From Ectothiorhodospiraceae bacterium (GTDB taxonomy: Bacteria > Pseudomonadota > Gammaproteobacteria > Nitrococcales > Aquisalimonadaceae): DNA of 59,927 nt. Below the pieces are notes generated by a model. The model made no database searches and was not told the DNA's origin. It saw only the letters and a program-made list of their open reading frames with translations. Positions within the stretch are counted from its first letter, which is position 1. Every line of letters starts with the position of its first letter. The translations under genes were made by a program, and so were the position numbers. Shown here one piece after another: positions 1 to 47,582 of the stretch. The DNA is taken from positions 1 through 59,927 of the forward strand of contig PXAT01000186.1 in NCBI GenBank assembly GCA_003565775.1, in the 5' to 3' direction.

Positions 1-88
1 GAATCACTACCGAACCGGCACCGCGCCTTGCCAGATGACCAAAACCGGACTCGGGCGCAGACGCGGGAATAAGTCAGCGTTTCCTTAA
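1..88 (+). repeat. Dispersed MITE-like element, right half (cut by window edge)
   Basis: Positions 1-88 match the right-hand part of the intact element at 40843-41119 nearly base for base. They share the GCGCCTTGCCAGATGACC block, the CTCGGGCGCAGACGCGGGAATA block and the terminal TCAGCGTTTCC. The copy ends in TTAA at 85-88, where the intact copy ends in CTAG. The left part lies outside the window. It sits directly upstream of xseB and may carry that operon's leader. Confidence 0.85.
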
Positions 89-3460: not shown

Positions 3461-3627
3461 GCTCTCCTTGCGCCACCAGGCAGCCCTGATCCGGATATCT
3501 CGGACTCAGTATCAGAATACCAGTATGCTCCTGCCCCCCGGCAATCACTCCTGCCCCGCGTCGGAACCCCCAATTTTCTCGAGGCCAGGCGCGCAAACAG
3601 ATCCGTGTTTCCGTAAGCTCCACCGCC

Positions 3628-24283: not shown

Positions 24284-24369
24284 GGCTTGTCCCGGGGCGA
24301 CAGGATACGGGTCGCCGGTTATAGCATCCGGGTCAGCTGCAGAACAACGCAACGAGCTGTTCGACCAAC

Positions 24370-24401
24370 GCGAACGTGCGAATAGATCAGCGTCTCCTTA
24401 A
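24370..24401 (+). repeat. Partial copy of the dispersed element (right end) before the kinase gene
   Basis: CGCGAACGTGCGAATAGATCAGCGTCTCCTTAA matches the terminal repeat of the intact element (CGCGGGAATACTTCAGCGCTTCC) and ends in TTAA at 24398-24401. Only about 32 bases are recognisable. Its outer end points toward the kinase gene 58 bases downstream, and an opposite-facing copy begins at that gene's stop codon. Confidence 0.75.
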
Positions 24402-24459: not shown

Positions 24460-26169
24460 ATGGCTGATCGAGACGGAGCCGAGTTTTCAGCCTGGAATCC
24501 GGGGCTGGAAGCCGACCTTCCCGAGCGTTACAAATCCCTGGAGACGATTCATCGACCGTCCAACGTCGATTCCCGTCTGTCCGAAATCCCGGAACTGATG
24601 GCCCTCACCGGCCTCCCGGAAGAGGAACTGGTGTTCTTCCGGGCGGAGCGCCTGATGCTGCACGAATTGATCGTCCAGGTCACGGGGGACATCGTGGTCC
24701 TGGAGGGTGAAGAAGAGGAACTGCTGGGACAGAACTTTCGCAGCATCGCTCTCAAGATCCTCAACGACTACCTTGCCCCCCGGATGCCGACGTTCCGGCA
24801 GGAGCACCAGCGCCTGCATGACGATATACACGGCCGCGTGGAGCAGATCCTGGCCACGGCATTCGCACCGGAACCCGCAGCCACCGATGCCGGGCCCCGC
24901 TCCTGGCTCAGCCGCTGGTTCGGCAGGCGCCGGCCACCCCGCCGTCAGCCTGACTCCCGATCCATCGAGGAACGCCATCTGGATCTGACCCGGGGCATCA
25001 AGGAAAAGGGCCTCGCGGCGCAGGACGAGCTGGAGCGGGCCATCTACAAGAGCAGTTACCGCGTCCTGAACGCCATCGGCGGCACCCAGGGCCATATCGG
25101 CGTGGACCGGGATCTGCTGGCCCGCCTGATCACGCGGCATGTGTGCAACGACTTCGGCAGCCGGCACCTCGGCCGGCAGATCGCCCCGCATGTCGAGCGC
25201 GCCATCGATGACGAGGGCTATGAACGGCTTCCGCTGGCCCGCGAGCCGATCCTGATCAGCCTCAAGGGCGCCTCGGCCGCGGGCAAGAGTTCCCTGCGTC
25301 CGTTCCTGCGAGACACCCTGCGGGATCTGGGCATCCAGCCGGACCATTACGGAACCCTCTCCCCGGACATCTGGCGCCGGCTGCTGCTCGACTATGAGGC
25401 CCTGGGCGAAGCCTACAAGTATGCCGGTCGACTGGCCGGCAAGGAACTCAGGCTGATCGACGCCAAGCTGGATCGCTACATCCGGGACAAGGCAGAACGC
25501 CACAATTCCATTCCGCACCTCCTGATCGACCGCTTCCGCTTCGACAGCTTCGCCATGGACAAGGTCCCGCAACTGCTCGATGCCACTTACGCGAAGCATG
25601 TCACCACCATGTACTTCTATTTCATCGTCACGCCTCCGGAGGCAACCGTGGAGCGCGGCTGGGAGCGGGGACTGACGCGGGGTCGCTACAAGGCGGTGGA
25701 GGACTTCCTGGGGCACTGCATCGAGGCCTATGACGGCATGCCCAGATTGCTGTTCAAGTGGCTGGACAGCCCGCGCCCGCATCTCGAATATCACTTCCTG
25801 GACAACAGCGTGCCCAAGCACACGCCGCCGACGACCATCGCCCATGGCAACCGTGATGTGCTGCACATCCTGGACCCCATGGGTCTGGTCAACATCGACC
25901 GCTACAGGAAGATCAACACCCTGGCGACCTGCCCGGAAGAGGTCTATCCCGACGACGAGAGTCTGACCATCGCCAGGAACTGCACCTTCATCAGGCAATG
26001 CATCGCCAGGGTGCCGGAAGTACGCTTCGTCGACGCGGCCACCGGCCAGGTCTACCTGCAGGCCTCGGCAGGCCGGTTCTCGGTGGTGGACGCCGGCACT
26101 CTTGAAGCCAGGCGGGAGGACCCGGAAACTGCGGAGTTGTTCGCCACGATCGGGGTGCCCGAGAGTTAA
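24460..26169 (+). CDS. P-loop kinase-like protein (zeta-toxin/AAA_33-like fold), uncharacterised
   Basis: A 569-residue soluble protein. The N-terminal half (residues 1-170) has no recognised domain and ends in a basic WLSRWFGRRRPPRRQ stretch. The second half has a Walker A motif GASAAGKSS at 270-278, then DHYGTLSPDIWRRLL and a second basic/arginine region RDKAERHNSIPHLLIDRF. This layout suits a phosphotransferase of the zeta-toxin/gluconate-kinase-like class. No antitoxin gene is adjacent. The TAA stop lies in the TTAA of the inverted repeat copy that follows, and another copy precedes the gene. Substrate and role are unknown. Confidence 0.6.
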   Translation: MADRDGAEFSAWNPGLEADLPERYKSLETIHRPSNVDSRLSEIPELMALTGLPEEELVFFRAERLMLHELIVQVTGDIVVLEGEEEELLGQNFRSIALKILNDYLAPRMPTFRQEHQRLHDDIHGRVEQILATAFAPEPAATDAGPRSWLSRWFGRRRPPRRQPDSRSIEERHLDLTRGIKEKGLAAQDELERAIYKSSYRVLNAIGGTQGHIGVDRDLLARLITRHVCNDFGSRHLGRQIAPHVERAIDDEGYERLPLAREPILISLKGASAAGKSSLRPFLRDTLRDLGIQPDHYGTLSPDIWRRLLLDYEALGEAYKYAGRLAGKELRLIDAKLDRYIRDKAERHNSIPHLLIDRFRFDSFAMDKVPQLLDATYAKHVTTMYFYFIVTPPEATVERGWERGLTRGRYKAVEDFLGHCIEAYDGMPRLLFKWLDSPRPHLEYHFLDNSVPKHTPPTTIAHGNRDVLHILDPMGLVNIDRYRKINTLATCPEEVYPDDESLTIARNCTFIRQCIARVPEVRFVDAATGQVYLQASAGRFSVVDAGTLEARREDPETAELFATIGVPES

Positions 26170-26240
26170 GGACGCGCTGATTTATTCCCACGTCTGCGCC
26201 CGATACCGGTTTCGGTCAGTTGGCAAGTCGCAGTGCGCAG
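26166..26240 (-). repeat. Partial copy of the dispersed element at the kinase stop codon
   Basis: Read on the minus strand this matches positions 10-88 of the first copy, including the GGGCGCAGACGTGGGAATA block. On the plus strand it starts TTAAGGACGCGCTGATTTATTCC. The TTAA (26166-26169) contains the kinase gene's TAA. The inner end fades at about 26240, just before the DUF4382-like gene stop at 26247. Confidence 0.85.
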
Positions 26241-37087: not shown

Positions 37088-37223
37088 GCCCCACGTCTTC
37101 CCTGTTGAATGATCGTCACCGGCGCCCGATGCGGGTTCGGCCACCATTTGTCGGTGCTTCATGGTCAACGATGTTGCGACGGGTTGGAAGCGATAAAGCG
37201 GTTCCGGAGCAATATTGAGGGGC

Positions 37224-37287
37224 GCCTTGCCAGGCTGCCAGAATCGACTCGAGCGCGAACGCGGGAATAAAGTCAGTGTCTCCTTAA
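37224..37287 (+). repeat. Partial copy of the dispersed element (right end)
   Basis: GCGCCTTGCCAGGCTGCCAGAA, then CTCGAGCGCGAACGCGGGAATA and TCAGTGTCTCCTTAA, follow the same order as the right half of the intact element. The TTAA (37284-37287) contains the TAA stop of the minus-strand gene that ends at 37284. It fills the 196-base spacer together with the DUF3581 leader. Confidence 0.85.
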
Positions 37288-40332: not shown

Positions 40333-40857
40333 ATGAAAACACGAAACCTGCTTCTTGCTGTCGGCCTGCTCGGCGCCGCAATCAGCCTGCCGATGACGGC
40401 CGGCGCGTACGACTCCCGGGTGCATTACGCGGATGTCACCCAGGTGATTCCGATCCAGCAGACGCACCGCATCTCCTACCCATCGCAGGAGTGTCGAAAC
40501 GAGCAGATCGTGCACCGCGAGGGCGGCCGCAGCTACGGCGGTGCGCTGGCCGGCGGCGCGGTCGGTGGCATTGCCGGCAGCCGCTTCGGCGGCGGCCGCG
40601 GCCAGACCGCGGCGACAGTCGCCGGCGCACTGCTTGGTGCCGCCGTGGGTGATCAGTTGACCCATCGGCCGGAGCGCTCCTACACCACCACCGAACGTGT
40701 CTGCGAGACCGTGGATCGCTGGTACGACGAAGAGCGCACTGTCGGCTATCGGGTACAATATCGCTTCCGCGGTGATACCTACTGGACCGAGATGGACTAT
40801 CACCCGGGCGACACCATTCGGGTTCGCCATGACGTCACGCCCCTAGGGAAACGCTGA
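40333..40857 (+). CDS. Glycine zipper 2TM (17 kDa antigen-like) envelope protein
   Basis: A 174-residue exported protein. The signal peptide ends near AGAYDS (residue 25). The glycine zipper GGALAGGAVGGIAGSRFGGG and VAGALLGAAVGDQL spans about residues 68-105. A conserved C-terminal part follows with ERVCETVDRWYDEERTVGYRV. Such proteins associate with the outer membrane. The stop TGA lies 11 bases inside the left terminal repeat of the MITE-like element, so the last four residues (LGKR) are element-encoded. Confidence 0.88.
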   Translation: MKTRNLLLAVGLLGAAISLPMTAGAYDSRVHYADVTQVIPIQQTHRISYPSQECRNEQIVHREGGRSYGGALAGGAVGGIAGSRFGGGRGQTAATVAGALLGAAVGDQLTHRPERSYTTTERVCETVDRWYDEERTVGYRVQYRFRGDTYWTEMDYHPGDTIRVRHDVTPLGKR

Positions 40858-41119
40858 AGTATTCGCACGCCTGCGTTGGCGTCCGCATTTTTCCCGAGGC
40901 AAGGCGCGCTGCGCGGCGCCGCAGTCGTTCTGCGGTCAAGCAGCGCAACGCAGCCGTCGGGGAAAATGCGGCCCAACCCGAAGGGCCCGGCCGGTTTTGG
41001 CCCCTGGCGGCGTTGCGCCACCGGCCCGGTAGAATCACTACCGAACCGTCACCGCGCCTTGCCAGATGACCAAAACCGGTCTCGGGCGCAGACGCGGGAA
41101 TACTTCAGCGCTTCCCTAG
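40843..41119. mobile_element. Intact MITE-like element with terminal inverted repeats and CTAG duplication
   Basis: The element body is 269 bases (40847-41115). The left end CTAGGGAAACGCTGAAGTAT is mirrored by the right end, and the inverted repeats extend for about 35 bases with few mismatches (40843-40877 against 41086-41119). Both ends carry CTAG, the target size and type (YTAR) used by IS5-family transposases. The interior holds a second near-perfect inverted repeat (40883-40897 with 40957-40971) and many GC palindromes, with no ORF. It is non-autonomous. The transposase is not in this window. Confidence 0.82.
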
Positions 41120-41147
41120 GCTGACGCAAGGGACCCATCAGCAGGCG

Positions 41148-41480: not shown

Positions 41481-42164
41481 ATGCGGTTGTTACTGGTCGA
41501 GGATGAACAGGAACTGGCCGCCCAGTTGATCCGGCGGCTGCAGGACGAGGGATTCGTTGTCGACCACGCCGATGACGGACCGGGCGGGCTGCACTTCGCC
41601 ACCGACTACCCGGTCGATCTCGCCATCGTCGACCTCGGCCTGCCCGGCTTTTCCGGTCTCGAACTGATCGAACGTCTCCGGGCCGGCGGCTCACGCTTGC
41701 CGGTCCTGATCCTCACGGCCCGTCAGGCCTGGCAGGATCGGGTGGCGGGCCTCGAGGCCGGTGCCGATGACTATCTGGGCAAGCCGTTTCGCATGGAAGA
41801 ACTGCTGGCGCGCGTCAATGCGTTACTGCGACGGGTCGGCGGCTGGGCCCATCCGGTGCTGGAAGCCGGCCCGCTGGCGCTGGACACGCGCAGCCAGAGC
41901 GCCAGCCTCCGCGGCCAGGCCCTGGATCTCACCGCCTACGAGTACCGGCTGCTGGCGTATCTGATGCACCACCCGCAGACCGTGGTCTCCAAATCCGAGC
42001 TCACCGAACACCTGTATCCCGACGACAGCGACCGCGACAGCAACGTGATCGAGGTCTTCATCCGGCGGCTACGCCAGAAACTGGACCCGGACGGCGATCT
42101 GCAACCGATCGAAACGCTCCGCGGTCGTGGCTACTGCTTCCGGCTGGGTGCCGACAGGGCATGA
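41481..42164 (+). CDS. OmpR-family response regulator (system 1)
   Basis: A 227-residue regulator. The receiver domain has acidic VEDEQE, phosphoacceptor Asp in LAIVDLGLPGFSG, conserved Thr in LILTARQ and Lys in YLGKPFRMEELLARV. The C-terminal winged helix ends VIEVFIRRLRQKLDPDG and IETLRGRGYCFRL. It is closest in type to PhoP/QseB. It is coupled by ATGA to the kinase downstream. Confidence 0.93.
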   Translation: MRLLLVEDEQELAAQLIRRLQDEGFVVDHADDGPGGLHFATDYPVDLAIVDLGLPGFSGLELIERLRAGGSRLPVLILTARQAWQDRVAGLEAGADDYLGKPFRMEELLARVNALLRRVGGWAHPVLEAGPLALDTRSQSASLRGQALDLTAYEYRLLAYLMHHPQTVVSKSELTEHLYPDDSDRDSNVIEVFIRRLRQKLDPDGDLQPIETLRGRGYCFRLGADRA

Positions 42165-43519
42165 CGCCGTCGCTGCAACGGCGGCTGCTGGTTGTTGCCA
42201 GCCTTGTCCTCATGGCGTTCCTCGGCGCGACCGGCATGGCTCTGGATCAGGCCTTCCGGACCAGTCTGATTCAGGCTCAGAAGGATCGCCTTCAGGGCTT
42301 CCTCTACACCCTAATGGCCGGCGCGGATGTCACGGACGGTGAGTTGCGGATTCCCGACGATCTGCCGGAGGGACGTTTCCATCAGATCGGCTCCGGGCTC
42401 TATGCCGTGGTGCTGGACGAACATGGCGAGACCACCTGGCGGTCGCGGTCCCTGATAGGACGCGAACTGACCGTCGACCGGGTGCTGCCGCCGGGCGAAC
42501 GGGACTTCTATCTGGCAGAACTCAATGACGACCGGCTGGTCGGGCTGGCCTACGGCCTGTCCTGGGAGGATCCGGAAGCCGGGCGTGGCGAATTCACGCT
42601 GCACGTCGCCGAAGCCATCGCCTTCCGCGTCCAGGAGCGGGCCGCCTATCGACGCAGCCTGTGGGGCTGGCTCGGCGGCGCCGCGATCGGTCTGTTGCTG
42701 GCACAGATTCTGGTCCTGCGCTGGGGTCTGCGACCGTTACGACGCGTGGCTCGCGACCTGAGCCTGATCGAACGGGGCGACAAGTCGGCGCTGGACGGCC
42801 GCTATCCCCGGGAAATCCAGGGCCTGACCGATCGCCTGAATCAGTTGATCCGGGGCGAGCGTGAACGCACCGAACGCTACCGCAACAGCCTGGCGGATCT
42901 GGCTCACAGCCTGAAGACCCCGCTCGCCGTGTTACGCACCAGCCTGGAAGCTGACAGTAGCCGTCCGCCTACGCCAGAGACCATGGATCAGATCGACCGC
43001 ATTCATGCCACCGTGGATTACCAGCTGGGCCGCGCGGCACTGGCCGGACCGCCACGCTTCGGCGAGAGCACCCGCATTCAGCCGCTGGCCCGCCGTATCG
43101 TGGACACGCTGCCGAAAACCCGGGCCGGAGGTCCGCCGGAAATCGAACTGGTGTGCCCCGACGAGATGCGTTTTCCGGGACCGGAAGGTGACCTGATGGA
43201 GATCCTCGGCAACCTGGTGGACAACGCCTGCAAGTGGTGTCACGGCCGCATCCTGCTGGCAGTCAGTAGTCGCCGCCACCGCTCCGGGCCGCAGACACTC
43301 CGGATCTGCATGGAGGATGACGGTCCCGGCGTGCCCGACTCGGAGCGTGAGCGTATCCTGCAGCGCGGCGAGCGGGTGGACGAAAGCCGGCCCGGGCATG
43401 GCATCGGCCTCGCCATGGTCGCTGATCTGGCACGCAATTATCGTGGCACCATCCGCATCGACCGGTCACCGGACCTGGGCGGTGCACGCTTCATGCTCGA
43501 GATTCCGATGCCGCATTAG
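42161..43519 (+). CDS. Sensor histidine kinase, PhoQ/QseC-like (system 1)
   Basis: A 452-residue kinase. It has an N-terminal helix, a periplasmic sensor domain (about residues 35-160) and a second helix (about 168-190). A HAMP region and phosphoacceptor LADLAHSLKTPLAVLRTS follow. The ATPase domain shows NLVDNACKWC, EDDGPGVPD and GHGIGLAMVADLARNY. The stimulus is unknown. The periplasmic domain is rich in Asp/Glu, which would suit cation or peptide sensing, but this is inference. Confidence 0.92.
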   Translation: MTPSLQRRLLVVASLVLMAFLGATGMALDQAFRTSLIQAQKDRLQGFLYTLMAGADVTDGELRIPDDLPEGRFHQIGSGLYAVVLDEHGETTWRSRSLIGRELTVDRVLPPGERDFYLAELNDDRLVGLAYGLSWEDPEAGRGEFTLHVAEAIAFRVQERAAYRRSLWGWLGGAAIGLLLAQILVLRWGLRPLRRVARDLSLIERGDKSALDGRYPREIQGLTDRLNQLIRGERERTERYRNSLADLAHSLKTPLAVLRTSLEADSSRPPTPETMDQIDRIHATVDYQLGRAALAGPPRFGESTRIQPLARRIVDTLPKTRAGGPPEIELVCPDEMRFPGPEGDLMEILGNLVDNACKWCHGRILLAVSSRRHRSGPQTLRICMEDDGPGVPDSERERILQRGERVDESRPGHGIGLAMVADLARNYRGTIRIDRSPDLGGARFMLEIPMPH

Positions 43520-43670: not shown

Positions 43671-45293
43671 ATGCCCCGCACCGCGCACCAAACGCTGAAT
43701 GCCCTGTTACAGGATCTGGACACGGCGCAGTTGCATACCGGGCTGAAGGGGCTGGAAAAGGAAAGCCTGCGCGTGACCGGCGACGGCAGCATCGCCCAGA
43801 CGGACCATCCGGCGGTGTTCGGCTCGGCGCTGACCCACCCCTGGATCACCACCGACTACTCGGAAGCCCTGCTCGAGTTCATCACGCCGCCGGAGCCATC
43901 GGTGGTTTATGGCCTGGAGTCGCTGGACGCCATTCACCGACACGTCGCTGCGCACCTGAACAGACAGCAGGAAATGCTCTGGACCAGCAGCATGCCCTGC
44001 GTGCTGCGGGGCGGCGAGGACATACCGATTGCGCGCTACGGCAGTTCCAACGTCGGCCGCATGCGGCATATCTACCGCCGCGGGCTGGACTGGCGTTACG
44101 GCCGCGCAATGCAGGCCATTGCCGGCATACACTTCAATTATTCCTTCAGCCCGATCGTGATGCGTGCCCTGCAGGCCCAGCGCGGACATACCGGCTCCCT
44201 GCAGGACTTTTCGTCACGCGCCTACTTCGGACTGATTCGCAATTTTCAACGGCTGGGCTGGTTGATTCCGCTGATCCACGGGGCGTCGCCGGCACTGTGC
44301 CGCAGTTTTGCCGGTGACGAGGAACTGGGCTTCGAGGAATTCAGCGACGACACGTTGTATGAGCCCTACGGGACCTCGCTGCGCATGAGTGATGTCGGCT
44401 ACAAGAACAAGGCTCAGGCGGCGCTGAACATTTCCTACGACAGCCTGGACGCCTACGTCAGCAGCCTGACCCGCGCGATCACCACCAGCGACCCCGACTA
44501 CGAGCGGATCGGAGTTCGTGTCGACGGTGAGTACCGGCAGCTCAACACCAATGTGCTGCAGATCGAGAACGAGTACTACAGCTTCATCCGACCGAAGGCG
44601 GTTGCACGGTCCGGGGAAAAGCCCACGCTCGCCCTGCAACGCGCCGGCGTGGAATATGTCGAGGTCCGGGCCCTGGATCTGAATCCGTTCGAGGCCATCG
44701 GTACCAATTCCCGCACACTGCATTTCGTCGAGGTGCTGCTGTATCTGTGTCTGCTACGCGAAAGCCCGCCGATCAGCCCGCGCGAGCAGGGCGGCATCAA
44801 CCGCAATCAGGGGCTGGTGGCCCGCTACGGACGCGACCCGGATCTGATGCTGCAGCGTAATGGCGACGAACACCTGCCGCTGCGCGACTGGGCACGCTCA
44901 CTGATGGATGAACTGGCGGCCATCGCCGAGGTTCTGGACCGGAACACGGGCGGGGAGCCCTACACGACGGCCGTCGCCGAGGCACGTGCGGCGGTCGAGG
45001 ACACAAGCAGAACCCTGTCGGCCCAGGTCCTGCTGCAGATGCAGGATCGGGAGGAAGGCTTCATCGAGTTCGCGCTGGCGCAAGCCCGACTGCATGCCCG
45101 ACAACTGCTGTCCCGGCCGCTGCCCGAGGCTCAGGAAGCCGAGTTCCGCGCAGCCGCCGAGGCCTCGCTGGCCGAACAACAGGCCATCGAGGCCGGCGAC
45201 ACACTTGATTTCGAAAGTTATCTCGCCCGTTACATGGCCCAGCGCCCGGAACCCCGGGCGGAAGACATCAGGCACAACATCCAGCGCAGCTAG
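43671..45293 (+). CDS. gshA: Glutamate--cysteine ligase
   Basis: A 540-residue enzyme of the E. coli type. Family features are GLEKESLRVTGDGSIAQTDHP with the ATP/Mg-binding Glu, TDYSEALLEFITPP, the YGSSNVGRMRHIYRRGLDWRYG region, IHFNYSFS and YVEVRALDLNPF. It makes gamma-glutamylcysteine, the first step of glutathione synthesis. It sits between two convergent-facing sensory operons. Its TAG stop is part of the CTAG at the outer end of an element copy. Confidence 0.96.
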   Translation: MPRTAHQTLNALLQDLDTAQLHTGLKGLEKESLRVTGDGSIAQTDHPAVFGSALTHPWITTDYSEALLEFITPPEPSVVYGLESLDAIHRHVAAHLNRQQEMLWTSSMPCVLRGGEDIPIARYGSSNVGRMRHIYRRGLDWRYGRAMQAIAGIHFNYSFSPIVMRALQAQRGHTGSLQDFSSRAYFGLIRNFQRLGWLIPLIHGASPALCRSFAGDEELGFEEFSDDTLYEPYGTSLRMSDVGYKNKAQAALNISYDSLDAYVSSLTRAITTSDPDYERIGVRVDGEYRQLNTNVLQIENEYYSFIRPKAVARSGEKPTLALQRAGVEYVEVRALDLNPFEAIGTNSRTLHFVEVLLYLCLLRESPPISPREQGGINRNQGLVARYGRDPDLMLQRNGDEHLPLRDWARSLMDELAAIAEVLDRNTGGEPYTTAVAEARAAVEDTSRTLSAQVLLQMQDREEGFIEFALAQARLHARQLLSRPLPEAQEAEFRAAAEASLAEQQAIEAGDTLDFESYLARYMAQRPEPRAEDIRHNIQRS

Positions 45294-45491
45294 GGAAGAC
45301 CTGATTCGCCCAGGGAATGCGGCCCAGCCCTCCGGGCCCGCGTAGGGTGTGTTCGCGAAGCGAACGCACGCGGTGTCGACCATCAGAATCAATGCCGCGT
45401 GCGTTCGGCGTTGCCGAACACACCCTACATGGAGGCCTCAGGCGGCGTTGCGTCACCGGCCCGGCAGCCCAGCTACCGACCCGGTTCCGAA
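45290..45491. mobile_element. Degenerate copy of the MITE-like element between gshA and a kinase gene
   Basis: The left end CTAGGGAAGACCTGATTCGCC begins in the gshA stop codon. Interior blocks GCGGCCCA and GGCGGCGTTGCGTCACCGGCCCGG match the intact copy at 40968-40975 and 41007-41030. The right end decays in CCGAATCAGG, whose complement supplies the TGA stop of the minus-strand kinase. A separate hairpin repeat (45342-45428) interrupts the copy. Confidence 0.75.
45342..45428. repeat. Long imperfect hairpin repeat nested in the element
   Basis: The left arm starts GTAGGGTGTGTTCG and the right arm ends CGAACACACCCTAC. Each arm also contains a small internal palindrome (TTCGCGAAGCGAA and TTCGGCGTTGCCGAA) and the two GCACGCGG/CCGCGTGC blocks pair. 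The whole 87 bases folds as a cruciform-like hairpin. Repeats beginning GTAGGGTG are common in proteobacterial intergenic DNA. It appears inserted within the older element copy. Confidence 0.8.
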
Positions 45492-47503: not shown

Positions 47504-47548
47504 CCCTGACCACTCCGTCCGCCAGCATTCGCTCCGGTCCGCCGCCAT

Positions 47549-47582
47549 TCGCAGGCGTGCGAATAGATCAGAGCTTCCTCAA
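47549..47582 (-). repeat. Partial copy of the dispersed element between PepSY gene and regulator gene
   Basis: On the minus strand the sequence runs TTGAGGAAGCTCTGATCTAT then TCGCACGCCTGCGAAT, matching the left terminal repeat of the intact element (GGAAACGCTGAAGTATTCGCACGCCTGCG). The outer end (TCAA on plus, 47579-47582) contains the TGA stop of the PepSY gene. It forms most of the spacer before the response regulator. Confidence 0.8.

Follow-up and report, generated by a model that had tools for sequence, protein, structure and literature searches.

The element at positions 40843-41119 raises three questions: whether it is a mobile element, which transposase could have moved it, and why its two ends resemble each other so closely. 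The window is the whole stretch of 59,927 nucleotides that was analysed. Over 277 bp, the element is arranged as CTAG, an 18-bp end, the body, a second 18-bp end, and CTAG again. The first-pass annotation had given both ends a CTAG flank and the body 269 bp, and the sequence agrees with it, with CTAG at 40843-40846 and 41116-41119. The left flank, a 4-bp target duplication of the YTAR type, is also indicated by the aligned ends and flanks and by an orthologous empty site; the right flank is read from the sequence. The left terminal inverted repeat GGAAACGCTGAAGTATTC, or A end, occupies 40847-40864 on the plus strand, and the right terminal inverted repeat GGAAGCGCTGAAGTATTC occupies 41098-41115 on the minus strand. 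Both were delimited with aligned ends and an end-motif scan, and the left one was additionally compared with the left end of an insertion sequence (IS). Inverted repeats of about 35 bases had been annotated. The ends are indeed inverted, but the tight repeat is 18 bp long with 17 of 18 positions matched, and the figure of 35 falls within a looser inverted repeat (40842-40890 with 41072-41120; 49 nt, 78% complementarity).

The body is rich in hairpins. The inner inverted repeat annotated at 40883-40897 and 40957-40971 is present, with 15 nt at 93%. The consensus fold and the module frame delimit two inner hairpin modules on the plus strand, whose coordinates were converted by hand from alignment columns 42-131 and 156-249. 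Module A (40884-40970) has the tip stem CCGCAG/CTGCGG and a 5-base loop; module B (40992-41078) is inverted relative to A and has a related frame, with the tip stem CGGTAG/CTACCG as read from the B end. The similarity of the element to its own reverse complement is 68% over 277 bp. Its single-strand DNA folding (z = -9.68) was equalled by 0 of 200 shuffles, and thus the fold is not due to chance. As annotated, the body has no ORF: none of at least 30 aa lies wholly within the element, and the 7 overlapping ORFs all extend beyond it. Between 40700 and 41300, no sigma-70-like promoters were found, and there is one terminator-like site against 0.7 expected.

The element lies at the end of a gene for a glycine zipper 2TM protein (40333-40857, plus strand), whose stop codon comes from the left end of the element according to the orthologue comparison. 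The protein ends in VTPLGKR-stop with the element and in VTPLG-stop when the flanks are joined without it. In the same-genus genome G001, the orthologous gene ends in VTPLG-stop and the site has no element, while in G002, of the same genus, a different, shorter element with ends recognisable by eye lies at the stop codon, about 5 bp farther along. The insertion on the last codons only swapped PLG-stop for PLGKR-stop, and the gene illustrates how an insertion at a gene end can barely change the protein. In 6 of 35 copies, a gene has its stop codon exactly at the 4-bp flank of one side, as counted by eye from rough ORF calls made with no gene finder. Directly behind the element is a PepSY gene, followed by response regulator and histidine kinase genes at 41481-43519.

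Six other partial copies had been annotated in the window, and default blastn recovered seven related stretches, six of them at E ≤ 1e-3 and the seventh at 0.004; the limits of some were set by laxer scoring of the same search. At 1-87 (plus strand) is the right-hand portion of a further copy, flanked by TTAA and truncated where the contig ends. End fragments flanked by TTAA are located at 24365-24400 (minus), at 26167-26235 (minus; from a relative), and at 37222-37286 (plus; its subterminal sequence resembles the GGAGACGCTGATTTATTC-type subfamily), and one flanked by TCAA at 47543-47578 (minus). Two inner fragments are on the plus strand: 45434-45483, from a longer degraded relative with a possible left end at 45290 (4 mismatches), and 3555-3594, a weak match (40 bp, 77.5%) after which comes a degenerate end with GTAA. 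By eye, a clear end is present in 5 of the 7 stretches, adjoining TTAA in four and TCAA in one. Palindromes of the form GTAGGGTG...CACCCTAC occur inside degraded or single-ended relatives (window 45342-45428; locus L081, 141-227), and they look like REPINs, although the home genome yielded no Y1 transposase.

Beyond the window, the copy search and end alignment proposed in the first-pass annotation yielded conserved end boundaries with YTAR flanks and the genome-wide family that it had predicted. In the home genome G000 (3.2 Mb, 215 contigs), the element gave 65 matches; owing to its similarity to its own reverse complement, some of them are a copy matched on the opposite strand. From the window and the fetched loci, 46 stretches were located and 40 near-full copies aligned, after omission of five with a short query span and of L031, which is the same locus as L021 on a second contig; 38 copies have both ends, L026 and L034 being without one. 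When as many as 3 mismatches are allowed, the home genome has 465 sites of the end pattern YTARGGAARCNCTGANNNATTC and 3 of its reversed form. With no more than 1 mismatch, the end pattern is found in 28 of 59 genomes (home and 58 relatives), with 230 sites in the home genome and 196, 189, and 22 in the three other genomes of the genus. A 23-base inner pattern matched at least 69 stretches of named genomes, those listed being from Methylonatrum kenyense, placed in Gammaproteobacteria incertae sedis in NCBI taxonomy, and the Ectothiorhodospiraceae MAG CSBr16_16. The host bacterium is presumably a soda-lake organism. No similar DNA was found in plasmid or phage collections at blastn E ≤ 1e-5. A 12-element library covers 6.3 kb in 38 islands, or 1.4% of the 448 kb sampled (window and 20 stretches), a slightly high value as six of the 12 were taken from that sample; with the library reversed, there were 0 hits. 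PMC9330008 mentions bacterial genomes in which MITEs make up as much as 2%, and thus the abundance here is high but not unheard of.

The same ends also enclose other bodies of 56 to 550 bp. These were seen in a set of 17 candidate pairs, and at least two of the pairs, L061 and L077, appear by eye to be due to chance. Hairpin modules recur across bodies; their frame is common, and their tip stems are of three kinds (27, 20, and 2 distinct sequences). The two inner hairpins of the element and a third in L072 have a common frame and loop pattern with different complementary tip stems, and these differences are two-sided change on a longer time scale. At least one subfamily has its own end type and subterminal sequence, GGAGACGCTGATTTATTC with CACGTTCGCGTTGG or CACGCTCGCGTTGG (L046, L058, L069, and the second copy in L015).

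The 4-bp flanks were analysed in 51 two-ended elements of the home sample (31 from loci around known copies, 9 from loci around chosen end hits, 10 from unselected stretches, and the window copy) and in 31 elements from relatives' loci. YTAR, which is given as the IS5 target motif in the part of PMC10359306 consulted, is present on both sides in 18 of the 51 and 23 of the 31. Identical flanks were observed in 19 of the 51 (shuffled mean 7.9, maximum 15 in 2000), a count that is the same for the 50 elements left without the duplicate locus L031, and in 18 of the 31 (maximum 16 in 2000 shuffles). With non-identical flanks in the other 32 home elements, many copies have decayed or recombined flanks. 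Head-to-tail copies that share one 4-bp flank, or that abut the remnant of another end, occur in L009 (601-877, 874-1150), L015, L016, L010, L024, and L028. Insertion beside existing ends is frequent, with 23 junctions at a lax match, one locus being counted twice.

The first-pass annotation had expected a transposase elsewhere and suggested a search for an IS5-family element with the same terminal repeats. Such an IS was found in relatives, but none in the home genome itself. When 14 relatives were searched for DDE_Tnp_1, G004, a genome of the same family, proved to contain four IS copies of 1202 bp that are identical to one another (L091, L098, L104, and L108). Their ends GGAAACGCTGATTTATTC and GGAAGCGCTGATCTAATG fit the end pattern of the element, and GC directly follows the left repeat in both. 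The right (B) end of the element (41074-41119, minus strand) is 76% identical to the right end of this autonomous IS over 46 bp (E 2.5e-4). Flanks are CTAA/CTAA twice, TTAG/TTAG, and CTAA/CTAG in L098, and are thus identical in three of the four copies. The encoded protein is an IS5-family transposase with DDE_Tnp_1 and DUF772, scoring 339.5 bits against NF033581 (cut-off 140). The arms of this IS match at 14 of 18 positions, with mismatches at 5, 13, 16, and 18 in our own reading. A 95% homologue is present in G011, and 11 long hits at 49-54% identity in G036; the two G036 copies whose ends were read have related ends flanked by CTTA/CTTA and TTAA/TTAA, and their arms differ at positions 4-6.

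In the home genome, whose assembly is 96.8% complete, nothing matched NF033581 or the G004 transposase protein, and G001 retains one 47-aa remnant. The MITE family thus appears to be orphaned in its genus, although loss of an IS copy in the 215-piece assembly is possible. Two home DDE_Tnp_1 genes (L048 and L049) were considered as the driver, and neither has these ends. The L049 gene is a 496-aa open frame, presumably IS1182-like. The short contig with L048 (G000:C198) has a G+C of 48% against 65% in the window and also carries an rhs-like fragment; it may be contamination of the assembly. In G004, the resident IS has the end type GATTTATTC, while many other end motifs there are GAACAATTC or similar. 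Therefore, this IS need not be the actual driver, and the G004 MITEs may belong to another, lost IS.

Comparison of the copies revealed an unexpected feature that the first reading had missed: the terminal arms vary between copies yet match within a copy. In the 38 copies, agreement between the two arms is 17.53 of 20 positions and falls to 15.29 when arms are re-dealt among copies (maximum 16.08 in 10,000). The excess recurs in the 51 two-ended elements of the home sample (15.65 of 18 against 13.87 shuffled; maximum 14.43 in 5000), in the 50 without L031 (15.62 against 13.85; maximum 14.52), and in the 31 elements from relatives (16.35 of 18 against 15.32; maximum 16.0 in 5000). Matching is weaker in elements of other sizes, both in the home set (n = 18; 14.0 against 13.01, 10 of 5000 as high) and in the second set (n = 13; 16.0 against 15.08, 45 of 5000 as high). 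The rare end state GTAGTC is common to both facing arms in an element with a 162-bp body (L050, 2823-2992) and at a tandem junction in L016 (716-755).

A 37-row alignment was used for the consensus fold, the counts of two-sided changes, and the mirroring of rare states. It omits L040, whose left arm is damaged (13 of 20 matched), which slightly favours matching, while the 38-copy tests include this copy; the row L015:870-1140 stops before the 3' end, and L035 starts without a flank. Two-sided changes were found in 12 of the 18 end pairs and in 5 of the 55 inner hairpin pairs. At the ends they account for 65 of 663 cells (19.9 after shuffling, with 0 of 500 shuffles reaching the observed count), and inside for 8 of 2033 cells (3.9 after shuffling, with 11 of 500 reaching it). 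For end states present in up to two copies, the partner arm carries the mirror state in 17 of 47 cases (permuted mean 1.3, maximum 6 in 300); for inner states, the count is 12 of 96 (permuted mean 9.95, maximum 16). An event visible from both arms is counted twice.

The element is well supported as a non-autonomous MITE of the IS5 family, to which we assign a probability of about 0.88, in agreement with the first-pass annotation of an intact IS5-type MITE-like element. It is short, lacks a transposase gene, shares its ends with an autonomous IS, carries 4-bp YTAR duplications, belongs to a genome-wide set of copies, and occupies a site that is empty in G001; a partner transposase in the same genome, which is not a strict requirement for a MITE, was not found in G000. 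Mobilisation would have been in trans: an IS5_4-type transposase would bind the 18-bp ends, cut out or copy the element, and join it to YTAR sites, and its later loss from the genus would have left the copies immobile. It is very improbable that the host retains the element for a role as structured RNA or as a regulatory hairpin. The strong foldback (RNA z = -10.35) and the position of copies beside genes would suit such a role, but the conserved fold is not strand-specific: in 34 of 38 copies the more stable fold is that of the minus strand, G-U pair shares are similar, and end mismatches in the 37-row alignment comprise 17 G-T and 14 A-C cells, without a clear plus-strand wobble preference. 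With the minus strand folding at least as well, end matching looks like a feature of DNA and not of RNA. There is also no Rfam match in the window at gathering scores, the orthologous site exists without the element, and flanking gene orientations are roughly even (10, 9, 8, and 8 of 35 copies by rough ORF calls, of which the left calls of L026 and L034 are meaningless because the contig start cuts these flanks, and in tandem pairs the flank is another copy). Even less credible is a REPIN-like identity, in which a REP-associated Y1 transposase would move the element by way of single-stranded hairpins. The body is hairpin-rich and two-sided changes are also reported for REPIN hairpins in the part of PMC3116915 consulted, but the YTAR duplications and the DDE partner with the same ends contradict it, and the Y1 transposase domain PF01797 was detected in neither G000 nor G002, with one match each in G001 and G003.

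For the matched arms of this MITE, arm-to-arm copying coupled to transposition fits best and is favoured, at somewhat below even odds and as an unproven reading. On movement, one arm would be used to rewrite the other, probably while the ends are brought together, which would keep the arms matched despite sequence drift and leave the inner hairpins untouched. That IS5-type movement as such rewrites one terminal repeat from the other is more doubtful. A general correction acting on every stem is no easy answer and is unsupported, since one-sided changes persist in the inner stems of the same element. A weak candidate as well is copying between ends that are statically joined, since adjacent ends at the head-to-tail junctions agree only slightly above chance (12.70 against 12.04 of 18; 22 of 5000 permutations as high; 23 junctions, one locus being counted twice on two contigs). 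It is conceivable, if somewhat unlikely, that selection and not copying causes the co-variation, the transposase moving only elements with matched ends. The co-variation is confined to the 18-bp ends, the part that a transposase would bind, and well-conserved positions (GG, C6, CTGA, and ATT) frame the variable ones, as this explanation would have it. Strict selection by the enzyme is nevertheless no easy answer to the four identical G004 copies, which multiplied with 14 of 18 bases matched; because this recently copied IS has mismatched arms, the transposase does not seem to need matched ones. The differences at positions 4-6 in the two G036 copies point the same way, and about 10 copy-positions with states of one or two copies in both arms would each need two independent mutations (a few fewer if by descent). 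Descent from several symmetrical-ended founders, with gene conversion between copies shuffling the interiors and hiding the lineages, is a little less likely again. The subfamily with its own end type agrees with it, and interior distances correlate with 5'-arm distances (r 0.38, p 0.004), indicating some lineage signal, while the correlation with the 3' arm is not significant (r 0.14, p 0.12). The end type, however, is shared with the nearest interior relative at chance (8 of 38 against 8.5 expected), and the mirrored rare states argue against descent alone.

If arm rewriting is true, each round of transposition can fix new end sequence in both arms at once, and end specificity evolves without mismatched intermediates and independently of the body carried. 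Transposon ends that stay matched while changing are hard to study where the copies in one genome are nearly identical. In this MITE family, a genome has dozens of copies, one body occurs with many end types, and the inner hairpins of the same molecule serve as a control; the plausibly active transposase in a relative makes the question of end matching directly testable. It looks as if a burst of MITEs outlived its transposase.

Among the literature titles searched, in which subscription papers are little covered, no IS5-type MITE family of Ectothiorhodospiraceae or Methylonatrum is named. The passages of PMC9330008 and PMC8944449 consulted contain no statement on a circular intermediate for the IS5 family, and one in PMC9330008 describes an IS5-family cointegrate typical of replicative transposition. 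Among the closest known systems are the IS5 family NF033581 (transpos_IS5_4) elements, with which the element shares the ends, the YTAR flanks, and 46 bp of the right end. It differs in lacking a transposase gene, in its body of hairpin modules, and in its better matched arms (17 of 18, against 14 in the G004 IS). REPINs, according to the part of PMC3116915 consulted, are likewise small, high-copy, and hairpin-forming, with two-sided changes across the palindrome, but they use RAYT (Y1) transposases, whereas the MITE described here has a DDE IS5 partner and 4-bp duplications. The Correia, ERIC, Chunjie, and QMITE elements, as presented in the part of the MITE review PMC10969869 consulted, are similarly short, with terminal and direct repeats and many intact or truncated copies; the terms "covari" and "compensat" are absent from that review. 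The present family is distinguished from these elements by an IS5_4 partner in relatives, by many body sizes with one end type, and by ends that co-vary.
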